Shown piece after piece: positions 7,178-15,550 of a DNA stretch of 17,889 nucleotides (position 1 is its first letter; each line of letters starts with the position of its first letter). The translations under genes were made by a program, and so were the position numbers. The notes under the pieces are model-generated. The model saw only the letters and a program-made list of their open reading frames with translations. It searched no databases and was not told the origin of the DNA. Source of the DNA: Trueperaceae bacterium (GTDB lineage Bacteria > Deinococcota > Deinococci > Deinococcales > Trueperaceae); assembly GCA_011390455.1 (NCBI GenBank), contig JAABSI010000016.1:26828-44716 (forward strand), in the 5' to 3' direction.

Positions 7178-8809
7178 ATGCAGATCCGAAGGCTCCTGAT
7201 CGCGCTCGTCGCGCTCGCGGCGACCGCCGCGGCGTTCGCCCAGTCGCTCCCCCGCGAGCTCCGCGAACGCATCGTCCAGGCCGTGGTCGAGGTCAACCGG
7301 TACAGCCCCAGCGCGGGCGCCACGATCGCGGCCGGCTCCGGCACCATCGTCAGCCCCGATGGCTTCATCCTGACCAACTTCCACGTGATCGGCGACATCG
7401 ACACGGGCTACGCCGACGAGTGGCACGCGATCGGCGTCACGGATCCGGCCGCGCCCGACCGTCCGCCGGAGCATCGGTACTGGGCGCGCTACGTGGCCGG
7501 CGAGCCGCTGTACGACCTCGCCATCCTGCAGATCCTCGAGAACGCCGACGAATCCCCGATCGCGCCGGGTACGGTGTTCCCCTTCCTGCAGGTCGGCGAC
7601 TCGAACACCGTCTACCCGGGCGACCCGGTGTTCGTCTTCGGGTACCCGGGGATCTCGGGGAGCACGATCACCTTCACCCAAGGGTCGATCAGCGGCTTCC
7701 TCGGCGAGGACCTGACCACGGGCGGCAAGCAGTGGATCAAGACCGACGCGAAGCTCGCGCGCGGCAACTCCGGCGGCACGGCCGTCGACGAGAACGGGAT
7801 CCTGATCGGCATCCCCACGCTGCGCTACCAGACCGAGGACGGCGGCTACATCGAGGCGCAGGACTACCTGCGGCCGGTGGCGCTGGCCTGGCCGCTGCTC
7901 GAGGTCAACGTCCGCAACGTCGCGGACGCGCGCGGGCCCAGCTCGGGCGGCCTCGGCAACCAGGTCGCGAGCACGCCCGCCGCCGCGGCGGCCGCGGCCG
8001 ATCGCCCGAGCGAGCCCGCCCCGGCCACGCCGGCCCCCGCCGCGTCGACCTCCACGGCCCCCACCGAGACCGTCGACGGACGCCTCACCTTCTACGAGGC
8101 GGCCGCCCTGACGACCTCCTCGCCGGTGCTCGACAACGGCGAGCACTTCCTCCTCTACGAGCGCTCGCTCACCGCGGGCGTCCCGGTCTACGTCGAGCTC
8201 ACGTCGGGCTCCTTCGATCCCTACCTGGTCGTCCTCGATCCGAACGGCGAACTCGTGCTCGAGGTCGACGACAGCCCCGGCATGGACCTGAACGTCGCCG
8301 AGCGCTTCACGCCCACCACCACCGGCACCTACGTGCTGGGCGTCACGAGCTACGGCCCGGGCGAGACCGGCGCCTTCGAGCTGCTGGTGCGCGAGGGCGG
8401 TGCGGCGTCCGACGGCGTCGCGCCGGGCGCCACCTTCTCCGCCGCCGCGGTGGGCGACGGCAGCGGCTTCGTCGGCTCGCTCGCCCTCGGCCAGCTCACG
8501 CGCACCCAGCTCGCCGGTTCGGCCGACGCCACGCCGTGGCACACGTACCGCATCGACGTCGCACCCGGCACCCCGCGGCTGGTCGTCGACCTGGCCACCG
8601 ACCCCGGCATCGACCTCGACCTGTTCGTGCGGTACGGCGAGGAGGTCACCAACTGGGGCGACGACGGCGACTGGGACCTGCGCGACGTCTCGCTCGAGAC
8701 GCGCAACAGCCTGGTGATCGACGCGCCCGCCGCCGGTCCCTGGTTCATCGACGTGGTGTGGCCCGGGGCCGAGGCCGGCTCGGCGCGCTACTCGCTGCGG
8801 GCGCGCTGA
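7178..8809 (+). CDS. Secreted trypsin-like serine protease with two C-terminal PPC-like domains
   Basis: A 543-residue exported protein. Residues 1-21 are a signal peptide (MQIRR, hydrophobic core, cleavage after AFA). A chymotrypsin/HtrA-like protease domain spans about 28-250, with catalytic His69 in TNFHV, Asp113 in YDLAIL and Ser198 in GNSGG. No PDZ domain follows, unlike DegP. Instead an Ala/Pro/Ser linker (about 255-295) leads to two beta-sandwich units resembling pre-peptidase C-terminal domains. The first is at about 317-407, with FDPYLVVLDPNGELVLEVDDS and the late motif GTYVLGVTSY. The second is at about 450-543, with IDLDLFVRYG and a matching WFIDVVWPG ending. These may bind substrate or act as removable folding modules. 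GGAGG at 7169-7173, four bases before the ATG, supports the start. The gene is divergent from pepF and ends in a strong hairpin. Confidence 0.93.
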   Translation: MQIRRLLIALVALAATAAAFAQSLPRELRERIVQAVVEVNRYSPSAGATIAAGSGTIVSPDGFILTNFHVIGDIDTGYADEWHAIGVTDPAAPDRPPEHRYWARYVAGEPLYDLAILQILENADESPIAPGTVFPFLQVGDSNTVYPGDPVFVFGYPGISGSTITFTQGSISGFLGEDLTTGGKQWIKTDAKLARGNSGGTAVDENGILIGIPTLRYQTEDGGYIEAQDYLRPVALAWPLLEVNVRNVADARGPSSGGLGNQVASTPAAAAAAADRPSEPAPATPAPAASTSTAPTETVDGRLTFYEAAALTTSSPVLDNGEHFLLYERSLTAGVPVYVELTSGSFDPYLVVLDPNGELVLEVDDSPGMDLNVAERFTPTTTGTYVLGVTSYGPGETGAFELLVREGGAASDGVAPGATFSAAAVGDGSGFVGSLALGQLTRTQLAGSADATPWHTYRIDVAPGTPRLVVDLATDPGIDLDLFVRYGEEVTNWGDDGDWDLRDVSLETRNSLVIDAPAAGPWFIDVVWPGAEAGSARYSLRAR

Positions 8810-8830
8810 CCCGGACGACCGTCGCATCGT

Positions 8831-8860
8831 GGCCGCTGGACGTCCCCACGTCCAGCGGCC
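8831..8860 (+). terminator. 13-base-pair hairpin after the secreted protease, abutting the next -35 box
   Basis: GGCCGCTGGACGT (8831-8843) pairs perfectly with 8848-8860 around the loop CCCC. It begins 21 bases after the protease stop and so fits a terminator, although no T-run follows. The next promoter's TTGACA starts two bases after it, so as DNA it could also be an operator. Confidence 0.65.
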
Positions 8861-8861
8861 G

Positions 8862-8890
8862 TTGACATTCGTGCGCTCGTGCCCCAGAAT
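8862..8890 (+). promoter_or_regulatory. Sigma-70-type promoter of the DUF4062-STAND gene
   Basis: A perfect TTGACA (8862-8867), a 17-base spacer and CAGAAT (8885-8890, four of six consensus bases). Initiation near 8897 gives a leader of about 60 bases. This is the best consensus promoter in the window. It also rules out a GTG at 8879 as the real start codon. Confidence 0.72.
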
Positions 8891-8956
8891 CTCCTGGCCA
8901 CGACCGATCGGGGTGCCACGGGCATCGTTCGGCGCGGCGCGGGAGGCGCGGGGGCC

Positions 8957-11900
8957 GTGGAGCTGTTCTTGGCCGTGCTTGGCGCGACGGGTGTCGTCAT
9001 GGCGATCGCGGCGAACGCGACCTCGATCGCGAAGTACGTCGGTGAGCGCCGGGGCACGAAGCCCGCGCGCGGGGGTCGCGCCGGCGGCCCAGGGGCCTCG
9101 CTCGCAACCGTCGCTTCCGCGGCGACGCCTGCGCCGAGCCCGCCGGCCGCCGCCCCGCCGCGCCCCCACCCCGTGCCCATCCGGACACCGGACCAACGCG
9201 TGCGCGTCTTCGTCAGCTCGACGCTCGCCGAGCTCGCGCTCGAGCGCGCCGCAGCGCGCGACGCGATCGAAGCGCTGCGCCTGACGCCGGTCCTCTTCGA
9301 GCTCGGCGCCCGACCGCACCCGCCGCGCGACCTCTACCGGGCGTACCTCGCCCAGAGCGACGTGTTCGTCGGGATCTACGGCGAGCGCTACGGCTGGATC
9401 GCGCCGGGCGAAGACGTCTCGGGCCTCGAGGACGAGTACCGCCTCGCGGTCGACCTCCCCAAGCTGGTCTACGTTCGGGACGCGACCACACCGCGCGAAC
9501 CCGCCCTGGAGCAGCTGCTCGACCGGATCCGTCGCGACGATCGGGCCTCCTACAAACGGTTCCGCAGCGCTGAGGAGCTCGGCGCCTTGATCGGCGACGA
9601 CCTGGCGGTCCTCCTGAGCGAGCGCTTCGCCCTCGCCGGCACCACCGCGTCGAGCGCGGCGGCGCCGAGCCCGCCGCCGGTCCCGGCGCCGAGCACCGTC
9701 GTCGATGCGGCCCTGCCGCCGCAACCGACGTCCTTCGTCGGCCGCGACGCCCTCATGGCCGAACTGGCCGACGCGATCCTGCGCCCCGAGGTCCGCCTCC
9801 TCACGCTCTACGGACCGGGGGGCGCCGGCAAGAGCCGGATGGCGATCGAGCTCGCGATCCGGATCGGCGACCGCCTGGGCGACGAGGTCCGCTACGTCTC
9901 CCTCGCGGCCGTGCGCGACCCCCTCCTCGTCGCCTCGTCGCTGGCGATCGGGCTCGGCGTCCAGGAGGAGGTCGGGCGCACGACCGTCGCCGCCCTGCAA
10001 CGGGCCCTCACCGGGCGCCACGGCCTACTCTTGATCGACAACTTCGAGCACCTGGTCGACGCCGCGCCGGTGGTCGCCGACCTCGTCGCAGGCCTTCCCG
10101 GGTGGACCGTGCTGGTGACGAGCCGCTCCGTGCTGCGGCTCCGCGGCGAGTTCGTCTACCCGATCCCCCCGCTCGACCTGCCGGAAGTGGCCGGTACGGC
10201 CCCGCCCGAGGGCCTTCTCGACTTCGGCGCCATCCGCCTGTTCGTCGAGCGAGCGCGCGCGGTCGACCCGTACTTCGAGCTGGACGCCGGCAACGCGGCC
10301 GCGGTCGAAGAGATCTGCCGACGGGTCGACGCCCTGCCGCTGGCGATCGAACTGGCCGCCGCGAGGGTGCGCTCGCTGTCGCCGACCGCGCTGCTCGCCC
10401 GCATGCACCGGCGCCTGCCGCTCCTGAGCGGCGGACCGCGCGACGCACCCGAGCGCCAGCGCACGCTGCGCGACGCGATCGCCTGGAGCGTGGCGCTGCT
10501 CGACGACGCCGAGCGCACCTTGTTCGAGCGCCTGTCGGTGTTCGACGGCTGCTCGTCGACGCGGACCATCGAGCGCGTCCTCGGCGCGAACGGCGACGTC
10601 CTCGAGGGCATCACGTCCCTCGTCGACAAGAGCCTGCTGCGGCGGCTCGATCCCGGTTCCGGCGAGCGGATCGCGATGCTCGAGACCGTTCGCGAGTTCG
10701 CGGCCGAGGCGCTCGAACGGGATCCGGCGGCGGCCGACATCCGATCGCGGCACGCACGCGCGTACCTCGAGCTCGCAGAAGAGGGGGCCGAGGCCCTCAA
10801 GGGCTCGGATCAGACGCGCTGGCAGCGTCTGCTCCAAGACGACCTGGGCAACCTGCGTGCGGCGATGAGCGCCTTGCTCGCCGCTGACGCCACCGGCGAA
10901 GCGCTGCGCTTGGCGACGGCGCTGCGGCCCCTCTTCATGGCGCGATGCCACTACGAGGAGGGTGCGCGCCTGCTGCGAACGGCGCTCGCGGCCGGGCCGA
11001 CGAACGCGGACGGCGCGGTCCGCGCAGCGGCGCTGCTGGCGCTCGGAGCGCTCACCTGGCGCCAGGGCGATCTCGAGGCTTCGCGGGCCCCGATCGAAGA
11101 GAGCCTCGCGACGTACCGGGCGCTCGGCGACCTCGCGGGCGCGGCCGCGGCGCTGCGTCTGTACGGCGTCCACGCCCACAACTCCGGTTGCTACGACGTG
11201 GCGCAGGGACGGTTCGAGGAGGCGCTGTCGTTGATGCGCCGGCTCGGGGATCGCGAGGGGGTCGCGAACACCCTCCTCGGCCTCGGCAACGTGGCATTCG
11301 ATCGCGGCGAGGCCACCGCCGCCGACCGCTACGAGGAGAGCCGCGCCATCGCCGCCAGCATCGGCGACACGCTCGGCGTGGCCTACGCACTCGACAACCT
11401 CGGGGCCCTCGCCTGGTGCCACGGCGACCTGGGCGCCGCGGACGCCCACACGGACGCGGTCGCCACCCTCTACGCCCAGCTCGACCACCCGCTCGGGAAC
11501 GCCAACGTCGCCCATCGCCGCGGCCTCCTCGCCATCGCGCGGGCCTCGTACGACGAGGCCGAGGCCCACCTGCGCGCCAGCCTCGCCATCCGCGAGGCGA
11601 TCGGCGAGATCCGCGGCGCGGCGTTCGTTCGCCACGACCTCGGGCGCGTGGCGCTCGCGCGCGGCGACCTGGACGGTGCCGCTCGGGAGTTCCTCGTCGG
11701 CCTGGACCTCGCCGAACGGCACCGCGCTCCGCTGATCCTGGTGCTCTACCTGGAGGGGCTCGCAGCCCTGCGCGCCGAGCGGGGGGCGCCGGACCAAGCA
11801 CTCGAGCTCCTGGCGACGGCGCTCGCCTGGCGCCGCTCGGAGCGCGTCCCGCTCTGCGCGGTCAACCGCACGCGCCACGAGGCGCTCGTCCGGAGCCTCC

Positions 11901-12025
11901 ACACCTCCGTCGAACCCTCCGCCTGGCGGACGATCGAGGCGACGGGTGCGGCACGCTCGGTCGCGGAAGCCGTCGCGCACGCGCGTGCCGGCATGAAACG
12001 GCCACCCGAGCCGGCGCCGCGCTGA
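8957..12025 (+). CDS. Membrane-anchored DUF4062 - STAND (NB-ARC-like) ATPase - TPR protein
   Basis: About 1022 residues; function unknown. A hydrophobic segment (2-19), followed by KYVGERRGTK, should anchor it with the bulk in the cytoplasm. A Gly/Ala/Pro linker (35-78) leads to DUF4062 (about 81-222): RVFVSST at 83-89, the SDVFVGIYGERYGW segment at 134-147, and LEDEYRLA at 157-164. A second Pro/Ala linker (228-258) precedes the STAND ATPase: entry motif TSFVGRD, Walker A GPGGAGKS at 286-293, Walker B LLLIDNFEH at 357-365, TSR at 388-390, and LPLAIELAAAR at 460-470. A winged-helix/ARC-like part (about 500-600) contains LVDKSLL and LETVREFA. Roughly six or seven TPR repeats (about 685-960) end the protein. 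No LuxR or SARP DNA-binding domain is present. The GTG at 8957 has GGAGG at 8942-8946 upstream. Such proteins usually gate an N-terminal effector by ligand sensing through the repeats; defence or signalling are both possible. Confidence 0.88.
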   Translation: MELFLAVLGATGVVMAIAANATSIAKYVGERRGTKPARGGRAGGPGASLATVASAATPAPSPPAAAPPRPHPVPIRTPDQRVRVFVSSTLAELALERAAARDAIEALRLTPVLFELGARPHPPRDLYRAYLAQSDVFVGIYGERYGWIAPGEDVSGLEDEYRLAVDLPKLVYVRDATTPREPALEQLLDRIRRDDRASYKRFRSAEELGALIGDDLAVLLSERFALAGTTASSAAAPSPPPVPAPSTVVDAALPPQPTSFVGRDALMAELADAILRPEVRLLTLYGPGGAGKSRMAIELAIRIGDRLGDEVRYVSLAAVRDPLLVASSLAIGLGVQEEVGRTTVAALQRALTGRHGLLLIDNFEHLVDAAPVVADLVAGLPGWTVLVTSRSVLRLRGEFVYPIPPLDLPEVAGTAPPEGLLDFGAIRLFVERARAVDPYFELDAGNAAAVEEICRRVDALPLAIELAAARVRSLSPTALLARMHRRLPLLSGGPRDAPERQRTLRDAIAWSVALLDDAERTLFERLSVFDGCSSTRTIERVLGANGDVLEGITSLVDKSLLRRLDPGSGERIAMLETVREFAAEALERDPAAADIRSRHARAYLELAEEGAEALKGSDQTRWQRLLQDDLGNLRAAMSALLAADATGEALRLATALRPLFMARCHYEEGARLLRTALAAGPTNADGAVRAAALLALGALTWRQGDLEASRAPIEESLATYRALGDLAGAAAALRLYGVHAHNSGCYDVAQGRFEEALSLMRRLGDREGVANTLLGLGNVAFDRGEATAADRYEESRAIAASIGDTLGVAYALDNLGALAWCHGDLGAADAHTDAVATLYAQLDHPLGNANVAHRRGLLAIARASYDEAEAHLRASLAIREAIGEIRGAAFVRHDLGRVALARGDLDGAAREFLVGLDLAERHRAPLILVLYLEGLAALRAERGAPDQALELLATALAWRRSERVPLCAVNRTRHEALVRSLHTSVEPSAWRTIEATGAARSVAEAVAHARAGMKRPPEPAPR

Positions 12026-13496: not shown

Positions 13497-13528
13497 TCGC
13501 TACGGGCAGCGCCGTCGACGCCGATGGG

Positions 13529-14236
13529 TCACGGTTCCGGGTCCTCCGCCGCGTCCGCGAGCCCGGCGAGGTGCAGCCGGTACCGCCCGCGCGTCCCCTG
13601 CAACACCCCCGCCTGCCGCAGGCTCGCGAACGCCGAAGTCACCGAGACGCGCGTGGCCGACACCATGGCGGCCAGGTCCTCGTGGCGCAGCTCGGTGACG
13701 AGGTCGACCCAACCCTCGTCGGCGTCCGTCCCGTAGCGCGCCCCTTGCGCCAGCAGCTCCGCGGCCACGCGTCCGCGGATCGGCGCCTCGACGCGCGCCA
13801 ACTGGTCGCGGCAGGCGAACACCTTGTCGGCCAGGATGCGCGTGAAGGCGACCACGAAGCCGGGCGCGTGGAGCGCCAGCCGCCGGTACTGCTCCTGGTC
13901 CATCGGGCACGTCACCACGTCGGTGAGCGCCACCGCGTCGAGGCGGTAGACGTCGTCTTCGGCGCCCACGAAGGCCTCGCCGAACAGGTCGTCGGGACCG
14001 ACCACCGCGAGGATGCGCTCGCGGCCCTCCGCCGTGGGCACGACCAGCTTCACCTGACCGCTCGCCACGACGTGCAGATGCGTCGCAGGATCGCCCGCCC
14101 GGAAGAGCGTGCTGCCCTTCGGATGCACCCGCTCCGGGCAGACCTGCATGAAGGTGCGCAGGTCGGCCTCGCCCACGCGCCGCTTGAAGCCCGTGTCCTT
14201 CAGCCACCAACCGGATCCGTCCACAGGCGTCGCCAT
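13529..14236 (-). CDS. Crp/Fnr family transcriptional regulator
   Basis: A 235-residue DNA-binding regulator. The N-terminal cyclic-nucleotide-binding-like beta-roll covers about 30-115: HPKGSTLFRAGDPATHLHVV, SGQVKLV and LFGEAF at 84-89. A dimerisation helix (about 118-150) and a winged helix-turn-helix (about 160-222) follow, with the recognition segment LAAMVSATRVSVTSAFASLRQAG at 188-210. The phosphate-binding part keeps GE (86-87), but the Arg-Ser/Thr pair of true cAMP receptors reads RL (98-99), so cAMP binding is uncertain. No N-terminal cysteine cluster of Fnr type is seen. The ATG at 14236 follows a TACCCT -10 box by five bases and is probably leaderless. It is divergent from lhgO with 42 bases between the start codons, making lhgO and crp itself natural target candidates. 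Confidence 0.93.
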   Translation of the reverse strand: MATPVDGSGWWLKDTGFKRRVGEADLRTFMQVCPERVHPKGSTLFRAGDPATHLHVVASGQVKLVVPTAEGRERILAVVGPDDLFGEAFVGAEDDVYRLDAVALTDVVTCPMDQEQYRRLALHAPGFVVAFTRILADKVFACRDQLARVEAPIRGRVAAELLAQGARYGTDADEGWVDLVTELRHEDLAAMVSATRVSVTSAFASLRQAGVLQGTRGRYRLHLAGLADAAEDPEP

Positions 14237-14241
14237 GACGC

Positions 14242-14247
14242 AGGGTA
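14242..14247 (-). promoter_or_regulatory. -10 box TACCCT, leaderless start of the crp-type gene
   Basis: Minus-strand TACCCT plus five bases (GCGTC) precedes the ATG at 14236. It faces away from the lhgO -10 box, with 20 bases between the two boxes. Confidence 0.62.
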
Positions 14248-14267
14248 CCGGCCCCGACGGACCGGGG

Positions 14268-14273
14268 TACGCT
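14268..14273 (+). promoter_or_regulatory. -10 box TACGCT, leaderless start of lhgO
   Basis: TACGCT plus five bases (CGCGC) precedes the ATG at 14279. It is the same hexamer and the same spacing as the pepF promoter on the other strand. No Shine-Dalgarno sequence fits. GTACC (14245-14249) and GGTAC (14266-14270) form a dyad spanning the two -10 boxes. Confidence 0.64.
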
Positions 14274-14278
14274 CGCGC

Positions 14279-15550
14279 ATGACCCGAGCCACGCCCGCCG
14301 CGGGCGCGCCCGAAGACCCACGCCCCGTCGTCCCGACCGCGGCCACGATCGAGGCCGACGTCGTGGTGATCGGTGGCGGCATCGTCGGCCTCGCCACCGC
14401 CGACGCGCTCGTCCGCGCCCACCCCGGCCTCAAGCTGGTCCTCCTCGAGAAGGAGGACGACGTCGCCACCCATCAGACGGGCCGCAACAGCGGCGTCGTC
14501 CACGCGGGGATCTACTACACCCCGGGTTCGCTCAAGGCGCGCCTGAGCGTGTCGGGCGTCGTCAAGCTGCGCGACTACTGCGCCGAGCACGGCGTCGCGT
14601 ACGACGCGGTGGGCAAGGTGATCGTCGCGACGTCCGAGGAGGAACTCCCGCGGCTCGACGCGCTGGTCGAGCGCGGCACGGCCAACGGCGTGCCCGGCTT
14701 GCGCGTGATCGACGCGGACGAGCTCCACGCCATCGAGCCCTTCGCGGCCGGTCTGCGTGCGATCCATTCGCCCGGCACCGCGATCGTCGACTACCCAGGC
14801 GTCTGCCGATCGCTGGCCGACGGTCTGCGCCGCGCGGGCGCGCGCGTCGAGACCGGCGCGCCCGTGGTCGCGATCGCCGAGGACGCGCACGGGCTCACGG
14901 TCACGACCCCCAAGCTGCGGGTGCGTGCGGGTCGCCTGGTCTCGTGCGCCGGTCTGCACGCGGATCGCATCGCCCGCATGGCGGGCGCCGACCCCGACGT
15001 CTCGATCGTCCCGTTCCGCGGCGAGTACTACTTCCTGCAACCGCACGCGCAGGACAAGGTGAAGGGCCTGATCTACCCGGTCCCCGACCCGACGCTGCCG
15101 TTCCTCGGGGTCCACTTCACGCGCACCGTCCACGGCGAGGTCGAGGCCGGCCCCAACGCCGTCCTCGCGCTCGCGCGCGAGGGCTACACCCACACGACGA
15201 TCAGCGGCCGCGACCTCGGCGAGACGCTCGCCTTCCCCGGGTTCTGGAAGCTGGCCGGGCGCTTCTGGCGCACCGGCGCGTACGAGTACTGGCGCTCGTT
15301 CCGCACCGCAGCCTTCGTCCACTCCCTGCAGAAGCTGATGCCCTCGATCACCGCGGCCGACGTCCGCCGCGGGGGCGCCGGCGTGCGCGCCCAAGCGATC
15401 GGGCGCGACGGCAAGCTGGTCGACGACTTCGCCTTCGCCGAGACCGAGCGCGCGCTGCACGTCCTGAACGCGCCATCGCCGGCGGCGACGGCGTCGATCG
15501 CCATCGGGGAGCACCTCGCCGGGCGGATGCGGGCCTGGTTCGAGGCCTGA
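14279..15550 (+). CDS. lhgO: L-2-hydroxyglutarate oxidase/dehydrogenase (FAD-dependent)
   Basis: A 423-residue FAD enzyme that oxidises L-2-hydroxyglutarate to 2-oxoglutarate and passes electrons to oxygen or the quinone pool. The Rossmann motif GGGIVGLATA lies at 32-41 after a 25-residue extension rich in Ala and Pro. The signature GRNSGVVHAGIYYTPGSLKA at 68-87 is diagnostic for LhgO and separates it from glycerol-3-phosphate dehydrogenase, D-amino-acid dehydrogenase and related DAO-family members. The substrate domain has FRGEYYFL, LGVHFT and the C-terminal GVRAQAI-DGKLVDDF and NAPSPAATASIAIGEHLA segments. Length matches the E. coli enzyme closely. The ATG at 14279 is set by the TACGCT box five bases upstream. 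It is divergent from a Crp-type regulator, and a hairpin 20 bases after the stop suggests a single-gene transcript. Confidence 0.95.
   Translation: MTRATPAAGAPEDPRPVVPTAATIEADVVVIGGGIVGLATADALVRAHPGLKLVLLEKEDDVATHQTGRNSGVVHAGIYYTPGSLKARLSVSGVVKLRDYCAEHGVAYDAVGKVIVATSEEELPRLDALVERGTANGVPGLRVIDADELHAIEPFAAGLRAIHSPGTAIVDYPGVCRSLADGLRRAGARVETGAPVVAIAEDAHGLTVTTPKLRVRAGRLVSCAGLHADRIARMAGADPDVSIVPFRGEYYFLQPHAQDKVKGLIYPVPDPTLPFLGVHFTRTVHGEVEAGPNAVLALAREGYTHTTISGRDLGETLAFPGFWKLAGRFWRTGAYEYWRSFRTAAFVHSLQKLMPSITAADVRRGGAGVRAQAIGRDGKLVDDFAFAETERALHVLNAPSPAATASIAIGEHLAGRMRAWFEA

Follow-up and report, generated by a model that had tools for sequence, protein, structure and literature searches.

DUF4062 was described in a 2026 preprint as a TIR-like NADase domain, found in Swarozyc (KpSwz) and in TEP1, and KpSwz, the bacterial member examined in depth, aborts infection and depletes NAD+ (PMC13174449). 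About 20% of Swarozyc homologues lie in defence islands, and over half lie beside one defence homologue (PMC13174449). Here, a 1022-residue protein was analysed in which an N-terminal hydrophobic helix, a linker, DUF4062, a STAND ATPase module and tetratricopeptide repeats (TPRs) follow one another in a single chain. It is encoded in a 17,889-nucleotide stretch of a Trueperaceae bacterium (GCA_011390455.1, contig JAABSI010000016.1, positions 26,828 to 44,716), hereafter the window, and is called the window protein; features are collected in Table 1. From its sequence and structural model, the protein is read as a one-protein NLR-like NADase switch tethered at the inner face of the cytoplasmic membrane, with a probability of roughly 0.6. 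Such a protein would join a receptor chassis common in bacteria, probably at the membrane, to the DUF4062 NADases, an enzyme family described only in 2026.

KpSwz shares with the window protein a DUF4062 TIR-like effector with the same catalytic-type glutamate. KpSwz carries a short helix-turn-helix/winged AUX domain, which grips the phage portal, whereas the window protein has STAND and TPRs in that place, plus the helix; neither an AUX domain nor a defence-gene neighbourhood was found for it. The main text of PMC13174449 does not contain the terms transmembrane, membrane or TPR. In the human proteins TEP1, NWD1, NWD2 and NPHP3, DUF4062 stands beside a STAND/NACHT ATPase, as in the window protein, in a eukaryotic setting (PMC13174449). 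Plant TIR-NLRs (RPP1, RPS4/RRS1) and Apaf-1 show the same succession of N-terminal effector or adaptor, NB-ARC/STAND switch and C-terminal repeats, and RPP1 and Apaf-1 were among the top Protein Data Bank (PDB) matches of the full model; their effector is of another family, and LRR or WD40 repeats occupy the place of the TPRs. To our knowledge, they lack an N-terminal transmembrane (TM) helix of this kind. The nearest parallel to the layout would be NPHP3, in which TPRs and an N-myristoyl anchor to the membrane are likewise present. AfsR/MalT and Avs/bNACHT proteins have the STAND chassis with C-terminal repeats, but the SARP/LuxR DNA-binding domain is missing from the window protein. It scored 53 bits against the NCBIfam AfsR model (cut-off 1430), and PADLOC (2023 library, E 0.1) gave no Avs/bNACHT match, its sole entries for the protein being a TPR model and a weak match to an oxidoreductase model.

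DRHyd domains, which are TIR-related, have been described on STAND-like proteins, and about 28% of the vWA components in one ternary system bear TM segments (Kaur et al. PMC7159879; the later eLife paper PMC8195603), so that membrane placement of such systems has precedent. A membrane tether on a DUF4062-STAND-TPR protein appears to be new, its parts being of known kinds. In the literature covered, figures and supplements aside, neither the anchored form nor the membrane partner treated below was found described, and nothing relevant on Trueperaceae with STAND was found among the matches listed; passages of PMC13092281 likewise gave nothing relevant.

The DUF4062 domain and the STAND module

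A full-length AlphaFold2 (AF2) model was built from 60 aligned sequences and had a mean predicted local distance difference test (pLDDT) score of 86.8. Conservation was read from alignment A1, with 60 rows chosen out of 121 proteins. The Pfam DUF4062 family (PF13271) matched residues 83-164 (E 4e-20; 72.2 bits, cut-off 24.7); in the model the domain is longer, a five-stranded beta/alpha domain reaching residue 233. The modelled domain resembles nucleotide N-glycosidases and TIRs, and the DUF4062 family of this protein matches KpSwz by profile (E 2e-7). Following alignment with KpSwz, the segment SFTEKAFDYA lies opposite S155-G-L-E158-D-E160-Y. E160 is the putative counterpart of KpSwz E97, because the aligned Ala would be position 97 of the deposited E97A chain when residue 15 of the published 15-C construct is taken as chain index 2, a numbering that is itself inferred.

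E160 is kept in 58/60 rows of A1, the exceptions being P0118, which lacks DUF4062, and P0013, which has Thr. In a motif search of 211 proteins both glutamates were present in 206, E/T occurred in P0013, and four gave no match, three of them reading SGLEDEW. The 20 Microbacteriaceae genes described below keep E160 in every case and E158 in 18. E158 was also considered as the catalytic residue, its column being Glu in 60/60 rows of A1 (in P0118, without DUF4062, through a chance alignment), and was rejected: the KpSwz numbering leads to E160, and two Microbacteriaceae genes have Ala at 158. P0013, an anchored homologue with FVSAA in place of FVSST, is a natural candidate for an inactive enzyme, because Thr replaces the Glu at the predicted catalytic position.

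In the ATPase module G286, G289, G291, K292, D361 and E364 are invariant in A1. The AAA_22 and AAA_16 scores were under the Pfam cut-offs for this protein; its precomputed list holds PF25872, which we take to be the winged helix of STAND modules of this kind. One chain thus contains P-loop, Walker B, winged-helix module and superstructure repeats, as in STAND NTPases of the AP-ATPase/AfsR-MalT type. The TPR pairs end in a cap in the model, and TPR_12 was matched in three stretches by Pfam. No DNA-binding output domain was found by Pfam in the 1022-residue protein, in which it departs from the AfsR/SARP/LuxR type.

A sequence-only reading of this DNA had named a hydrophobic N-terminal helix, DUF4062, a STAND ATPase with intact Walker A and B, six or seven TPRs and no DNA-binding domain. 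All of these were recovered here, the helix by Kyte-Doolittle hydropathy, shuffling and AF2 alike, and the repeat count was fair because the model has seven helix pairs plus a cap. The same reading had proposed DUF4062 as effector or adaptor and the helix as a means of reaching the membrane. The effector role is now supported, as a prediction, by the KpSwz profile match, the fold comparison and PMC13174449, the predicted structure of the region being TIR-like and nucleotide N-glycosidase-like with E160 kept; for a membrane anchor, hydropathy, basic stretch and modelled helix agree as predictors.

In the proposed mechanism, the ADP-bound STAND module would at rest keep the DUF4062 domains apart. 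Binding of a trigger by the TPR arm would lead to nucleotide exchange and oligomerisation, upon which clustered DUF4062 domains would cleave NAD+, releasing nicotinamide and ADP-ribose, and the cell would be arrested or killed. The helix would hold the protein at the membrane, where it would be more concentrated locally and perhaps close to the site at which the trigger arises, and the helix's conserved face of small residues and Asn may pack helices within the oligomer. Phage infection is the likeliest trigger, at perhaps even odds, with envelope stress as the main alternative.

The N-terminal helix as a putative membrane tether

Mean Kyte-Doolittle hydropathy over residues 1-19 was 2.18, a value reached in 14/10000 shuffles of residues 1-74. 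AF2 gave a single helix at residues 2-31 with a pLDDT of about 70, followed by a linker (residues about 31-80) below 50. Among eight close homologues, identity was 71-100% in the helix, 74-91% in DUF4062, 65-87% in STAND and 29-45% in the linker (residues 33-74); the helix is, at sequence level, as conserved as DUF4062 and the linker is not. In 40 sequences with the helix motif, the 15 residues behind the hydrophobic core contain on average 5.7 K/R and 1.95 D/E, and only 0-3 residues precede the core in 36/40, the mean there being 0.08 K/R. No K, R, D, E or H occurs in the core, which is up to 22 residues long, in 39/40, P0030 having one His. The topology is therefore likely N-out/C-in, the charge pattern being as expected for it. 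A signal peptide was considered and rejected, since the basic residues follow the helix.

A gap-free alignment of 45 distinct N-termini with a TM segment had its lowest entropies at A6, G12, V13, A16, N20, I24, R31 and R32. The helical moment of conservation at 100 degrees was equalled in 29/10000 permutations, in a set that was not chosen by motif and in which P0019, P0131 and P0133, of 48 rows, lay on a wrong or unrelated stretch; a separate periodicity test on motif-chosen sequences was biased by that choice. G12, A16, N20 and I24 are spaced by four and form a single helix face, a spacing like that of small-xxx-small packing faces. The helix is not the only hydrophobic segment at this position: P0015, P0019, P0036 and P0178 carry an unrelated one, strongly hydrophobic in P0019 (mean Kyte-Doolittle 3.29), and P0017 is strongly diverged. 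In P0020, P0118 and P0122 the motif helix, linker and STAND are kept without DUF4062, TPRs being present in the precomputed Pfam lists.

These last three proteins, in which only a linker stands between helix and STAND, bear on an explanation in which the helix is itself an effector, perturbing the membrane or forming pores on oligomerisation, with DUF4062 as a second effector. The conserved G-xxx-A-xxx-N-xxx-I face would suit such a role, and membrane perforation is a known output of cell-death systems (PMC8195603). However, the five homologues with unrelated or diverged segments are better explained by plain anchoring, and the helix is single and moderately hydrophobic, so that a helix effector is considered unlikely.

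Several points weigh against a membrane-tethered NADase. Foldseek alone gave the modelled DUF4062 domain only weak matches, PurE first. The human DUF4062-NACHT proteins NWD1, NWD2 and NPHP3 showed no NADase activity, TEP1 alone being active (PMC13174449), so that DUF4062 does not guarantee activity. NADase activity cannot be the sole function of the anchored chassis, because DUF4062 was lost at least twice and one member lacks the catalytic Glu. The genes around it in the window look like housekeeping genes. The helix is only moderately hydrophobic, with conserved Asn20 and Thr22; approximate summed Hessa-type scores ran from -1.3 to +2.2 for motif anchors, and the low K/R on the N-side says little because few residues precede the core. 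An in-plane or soluble helix is possible.

The two polar residues, the 100-degree periodicity and the borderline insertion scores would fit an amphipathic or coiled oligomerisation helix in the cytosol, outside the membrane. Such a helix accounts poorly for the uncharged core with a basic stretch behind it, for replacement by strongly hydrophobic segments as in P0019, and for the membrane partner found in relatives, and is accordingly held improbable. With the helix taken as a membrane tether, these bacterial proteins could show how NPHP3-like receptors switch on, the DUF4062 of NPHP3 itself having shown no activity.

A seven-transmembrane gene beside unanchored relatives

Directly downstream of three Microbacteriaceae DUF4062-STAND genes lies a gene for a protein of 269-285 residues with 7-8 hydrophobic segments, here called the seven-transmembrane (7-TM) family. 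In 150 Microbacteriaceae genomes the family was matched in 22, strongly in 21. Following retrieval of 20 of the 21 strong loci (L073-L092), a full-length DUF4062-STAND gene was found directly upstream on the same strand in 20/20; in the remaining genome a STAND match stands beside the 7-TM gene on a short contig. The distances from stop to start were -10, -10, -7, -7, -3 (12 times), 0, 5, 9 and 14, mostly overlaps. The Walker A pattern was matched in 19/20 of these STAND genes, L088 being the exception. Their proteins begin 4-11 residues before DUF4062 at the nearest start codon, and no segment with a mean hydropathy of 1.6 was found in the open frame above those starts. DUF4062-STAND was present in 26 of the same 150 genomes, and all 21 strong 7-TM genomes are within these 26 (hypergeometric 3e-21, not corrected for kinship).

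The family was also found in 9/14 genomes, comprising those of the 13 DUF4062-STAND loci of the first scan and one Trueperaceae genome. It adjoined DUF4062-STAND in 8/13 of these loci, namely L004, L008 (also among the 150 genomes), L027, L005, L006, L009, L010 and L015. The two genes are head to head in two Blastococcus, one Geodermatophilus and one Kineosporiaceae, with 31-37% identity to the query. In Cellulosimicrobium (L015/L100) the 7-TM gene is downstream; STAND is spread over two frames there, the 7-TM match contains a stop, and the copy looks frameshifted. The occurrence of both downstream and head-to-head orientations argues for a functional link rather than inherited order.

Across 22 sequences the 7-TM family has 46 invariant columns, including His 99, and D101, H104 and H107 are nearly invariant. 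Against Pfam, the best E value among 22 members was 0.0097; against NCBIfam, HdeD was matched at 1e-4 for one of three members, and no PDB sequence was matched at E 1, so that none of the three collections gave a relative worth naming.

The association is incomplete. No 7-TM gene adjoins L001, L002, L003, L007 or L018, nor was the family matched in their genomes; 5/26 Microbacteriaceae genomes with DUF4062-STAND lack a strong match, and neither the window nor the Trueperaceae anchored locus carries the gene. Conversely, copies at L093, L101 and L102 have no DUF4062-STAND in the fetched stretch, nor has L094, at a contig edge. The small gaps are favoured by the method, the 7-TM start having been set at the codon nearest the upstream stop.

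Membrane contact, and not one helix sequence, is suggested to be what selection keeps, because many unanchored relatives adjoin a 7-TM gene and some homologues carry unrelated TM segments. Membrane coupling may thus be general for DUF4062-STAND proteins, in cis in the window and in trans through the 7-TM protein. A wider proposal is tentative and put at somewhat under even odds: that such coupling is built into DUF4062-STAND-TPR systems by several routes, in cis by the present helix or by unrelated TM segments and in trans by the 7-TM protein, the membrane component sensing envelope injury or being a pore-type second effector. These proteins would then be membrane-guarding NADase receptors; such layouts are familiar from animal receptors, and we know of no description of one for DUF4062. 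The 7-TM partner offers a concrete new gene family to test, with physical coupling to the STAND protein as the prediction. A single-gene defence function, as the sequence-only reading supposed, may hold for the window, but many relatives adjoin a 7-TM gene.

Other arrangements were observed. At G076:C1:1889238-1899875, four DUF4062-STAND genes stand in tandem with a 7-TM gene at one end, two more matches lying elsewhere. In Agrococcus (L002, L003, L018) two DUF4062-STAND genes stand in tandem, overlapping in L002 (-3) and L003 (-6), and were likened to paired NLRs. The contig of the Trueperaceae 7-TM relative L093 carries a KaiC-like P-loop frame, recognised by eye.

Distribution and genomic context

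Among 5.8 billion proteins searched, 7997 candidates were scored and 7994 accepted, a number of them possibly matching in the STAND-TPR part only; scored on residues 1-240 of P0033, 4082/7995 were accepted. DUF4062-STAND-TPR proteins, in the form without the helix, are therefore common at sequence level. The best 120 contain DUF4062 in all but P0018, P0020 and P0118 (precomputed Pfam lists, counted by eye). The 217 proteins classified (P0001, P0003-P0218), drawn from best-120 lists and not a random sample, comprised 37 motif anchors, 8 with other TM segments (three of them motif variants by eye), 166 without TM, 3 with the motif and no DUF4062, and 3 others; homologues with the anchor-DUF4062-STAND-TPR order, for which the sequence-only reading had suggested looking, thus exist. 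A search with residues 1-40 of P0118 alone returned 2 proteins among 47 candidates and is too insensitive for the spread of the helix. The best match among searchable genomes was a Trueperaceae genome (47% over residues 2-741), and one anchored homologue bears the name Trueperaceae. In scanned viral contigs, 0/18 pattern matches with P0001 encode a relative.

A quick maximum-likelihood tree of the STAND core (91 rows, SH-aLRT support only, 32/88 inner branches open) placed the window protein in a clade of 41 rows with support 98, made up of 34 motif anchors, 3 with the motif and no DUF4062, 2 with other TM segments and 2 with odd N-termini. Rows with a P-loop outside the search pattern (P0019, P0185 and two of 45 sampled unanchored proteins) were omitted. 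Anchors outside the clade are P0044 and P0071, beside unanchored P0088, and P0036 and P0178. TM presence changed at least 6 times on the tree, gene-start errors being able to account for some unanchored cases such as P0088, and DUF4062 was lost at least 2 times, in P0020 and in P0118 with P0122.

Loss of DUF4062 with anchor, STAND and TPRs kept would suit membrane-tethered signalling rather than suicide, in which DUF4062 makes an ADP-ribose or derivative signal, or acts as adaptor, in envelope-stress or developmental regulation. So would the neighbours of the window gene and its relatives, which look like housekeeping genes, some of them for the cell envelope (M23, penicillin-binding protein), and the Trueperaceae genome G008, whose 32 matches, the best one apart, start no earlier than query residue 179, so that it holds many STAND relatives lacking this N-terminus. 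Signalling is nevertheless given a clearly smaller chance than the NADase switch: the well-studied bacterial DUF4062 protein depletes NAD+ and aborts infection (PMC13174449), and patchy spread (26/150 Microbacteriaceae) and tandem arrays (four genes in G076) resemble conflict genes.

Further DUF4062 fusions were observed by name and precomputed Pfam lists: to class 3 adenylate cyclase and STAND-type domains in P0146, P0205 and P0213, and to beta-propeller and solute-binding domains in P0155 and P0189.

Table 1. Window coordinates of the analysed gene, its parts and the features upstream of it
Feature	Position	Strand	Basis
Upstream gene for a secreted trypsin-like protease that has PPC domains	7178..8809	+	
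14-bp hairpin between protease gene and analysed gene	8830..8861	+	without T-run, not called terminator
Sigma-70-like promoter TTGACA-17-CAGAAT	8862..8890	+	consensus match only
GGGAGG, likely ribosome-binding site	8941..8946	+	by eye
Whole gene, 1022 residues, helix-linker-DUF4062-STAND-TPR	8957..12025	+	frame, Pfam, AF2 model
Hydrophobic helix at the N-terminus (residues 2-31), likely an N-out/C-in anchor, with G12-A16-N20-I24 as its conserved face	8960..9049	+	AF2, hydropathy, charges
Disordered Pro/Ala-rich linker, residues 32-80	9050..9196	+	AF2, homologue comparison
DUF4062 TIR-like domain, residues 83-233	9203..9655	+	Pfam, AF2, fold and profile comparison
Codon of E160, inferred catalytic Glu (E158 two residues earlier)	9434..9436	+	KpSwz E97 equivalent by alignment
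STAND/NB-ARC-like ATPase module, about residues 255-590, borders approximate	9719..10726	+	Pfam, AF2, PDB matches
Walker A GPGGAGKS, residues 286-293	9812..9835	+	sequence, alignment A1
Walker B region LLLIDNFE, residues 357-364	10025..10048	+	sequence, alignment A1
Seven TPR helix pairs, residues 686-962	11012..11842	+	Pfam, AF2

The gene was confirmed with the boundaries assigned by the sequence-only reading: it starts with GTG, the nearest homologues begin at the same residue, and GC by codon position (0.78/0.53/0.92) supports coding along the entire length. The gene was likewise found to stand alone, separated by the hairpin from the same-strand gene upstream and convergent with the downstream gene, the stop codons being 3 bp apart. 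Of its supposed own strong promoter, one site with 10/12 consensus matches stands (shuffles 0.0 +/- 0.1), a consensus match that does not show strength. A functional pair with the trypsin-like gene was considered and weakly rejected, the hairpin and the promoter-like site lying between.

From left to right, the window holds the 3' part of RF3, GGDEF, beta-lactamase-like, dienelactone hydrolase (minus strand), cold-shock protein, fatty-acid desaturase, M3 oligopeptidase (minus strand), the trypsin-like gene and the analysed gene, followed by M23 (minus strand), cytochrome P460, CRP-like (minus strand), DAO oxidoreductase, PRC-barrel, DUF892 and HTH_17 (minus strand). No tRNA was found in the window as a mark of integration. 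PADLOC was run on 16 window open reading frames (ORFs), comprising 15 likely genes and one wrong-frame ORF (13500-14321), the right CRP-like frame also being scanned, and found no defence-island marker among the 16. The idea that such genes cluster in defence islands is thus not supported by the window; among neighbours of relatives, five AAA-type models were matched. At 11 actinobacterial DUF4062-STAND loci, 103 ORFs in the neighbourhood were scanned, a count without a control set; four models for IetA and one for TRIP13 each matched a single ORF, perhaps the same one, at 1e-10. Neighbour ORFs were selected by a simple GC-frame choice and 103/107 were scanned, four being omitted as likely antisense or overlapping; one of these, L009:8944-10017, is the 7-TM gene. 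In the window itself, the cold-shock gene matched the generic CSD_V model (E 3e-15), two further matches were above E 0.001, and the trypsin-like gene partly matched the protease parts of RT-Protease_XI (E 3e-10), LmuA and PDC-M35A.

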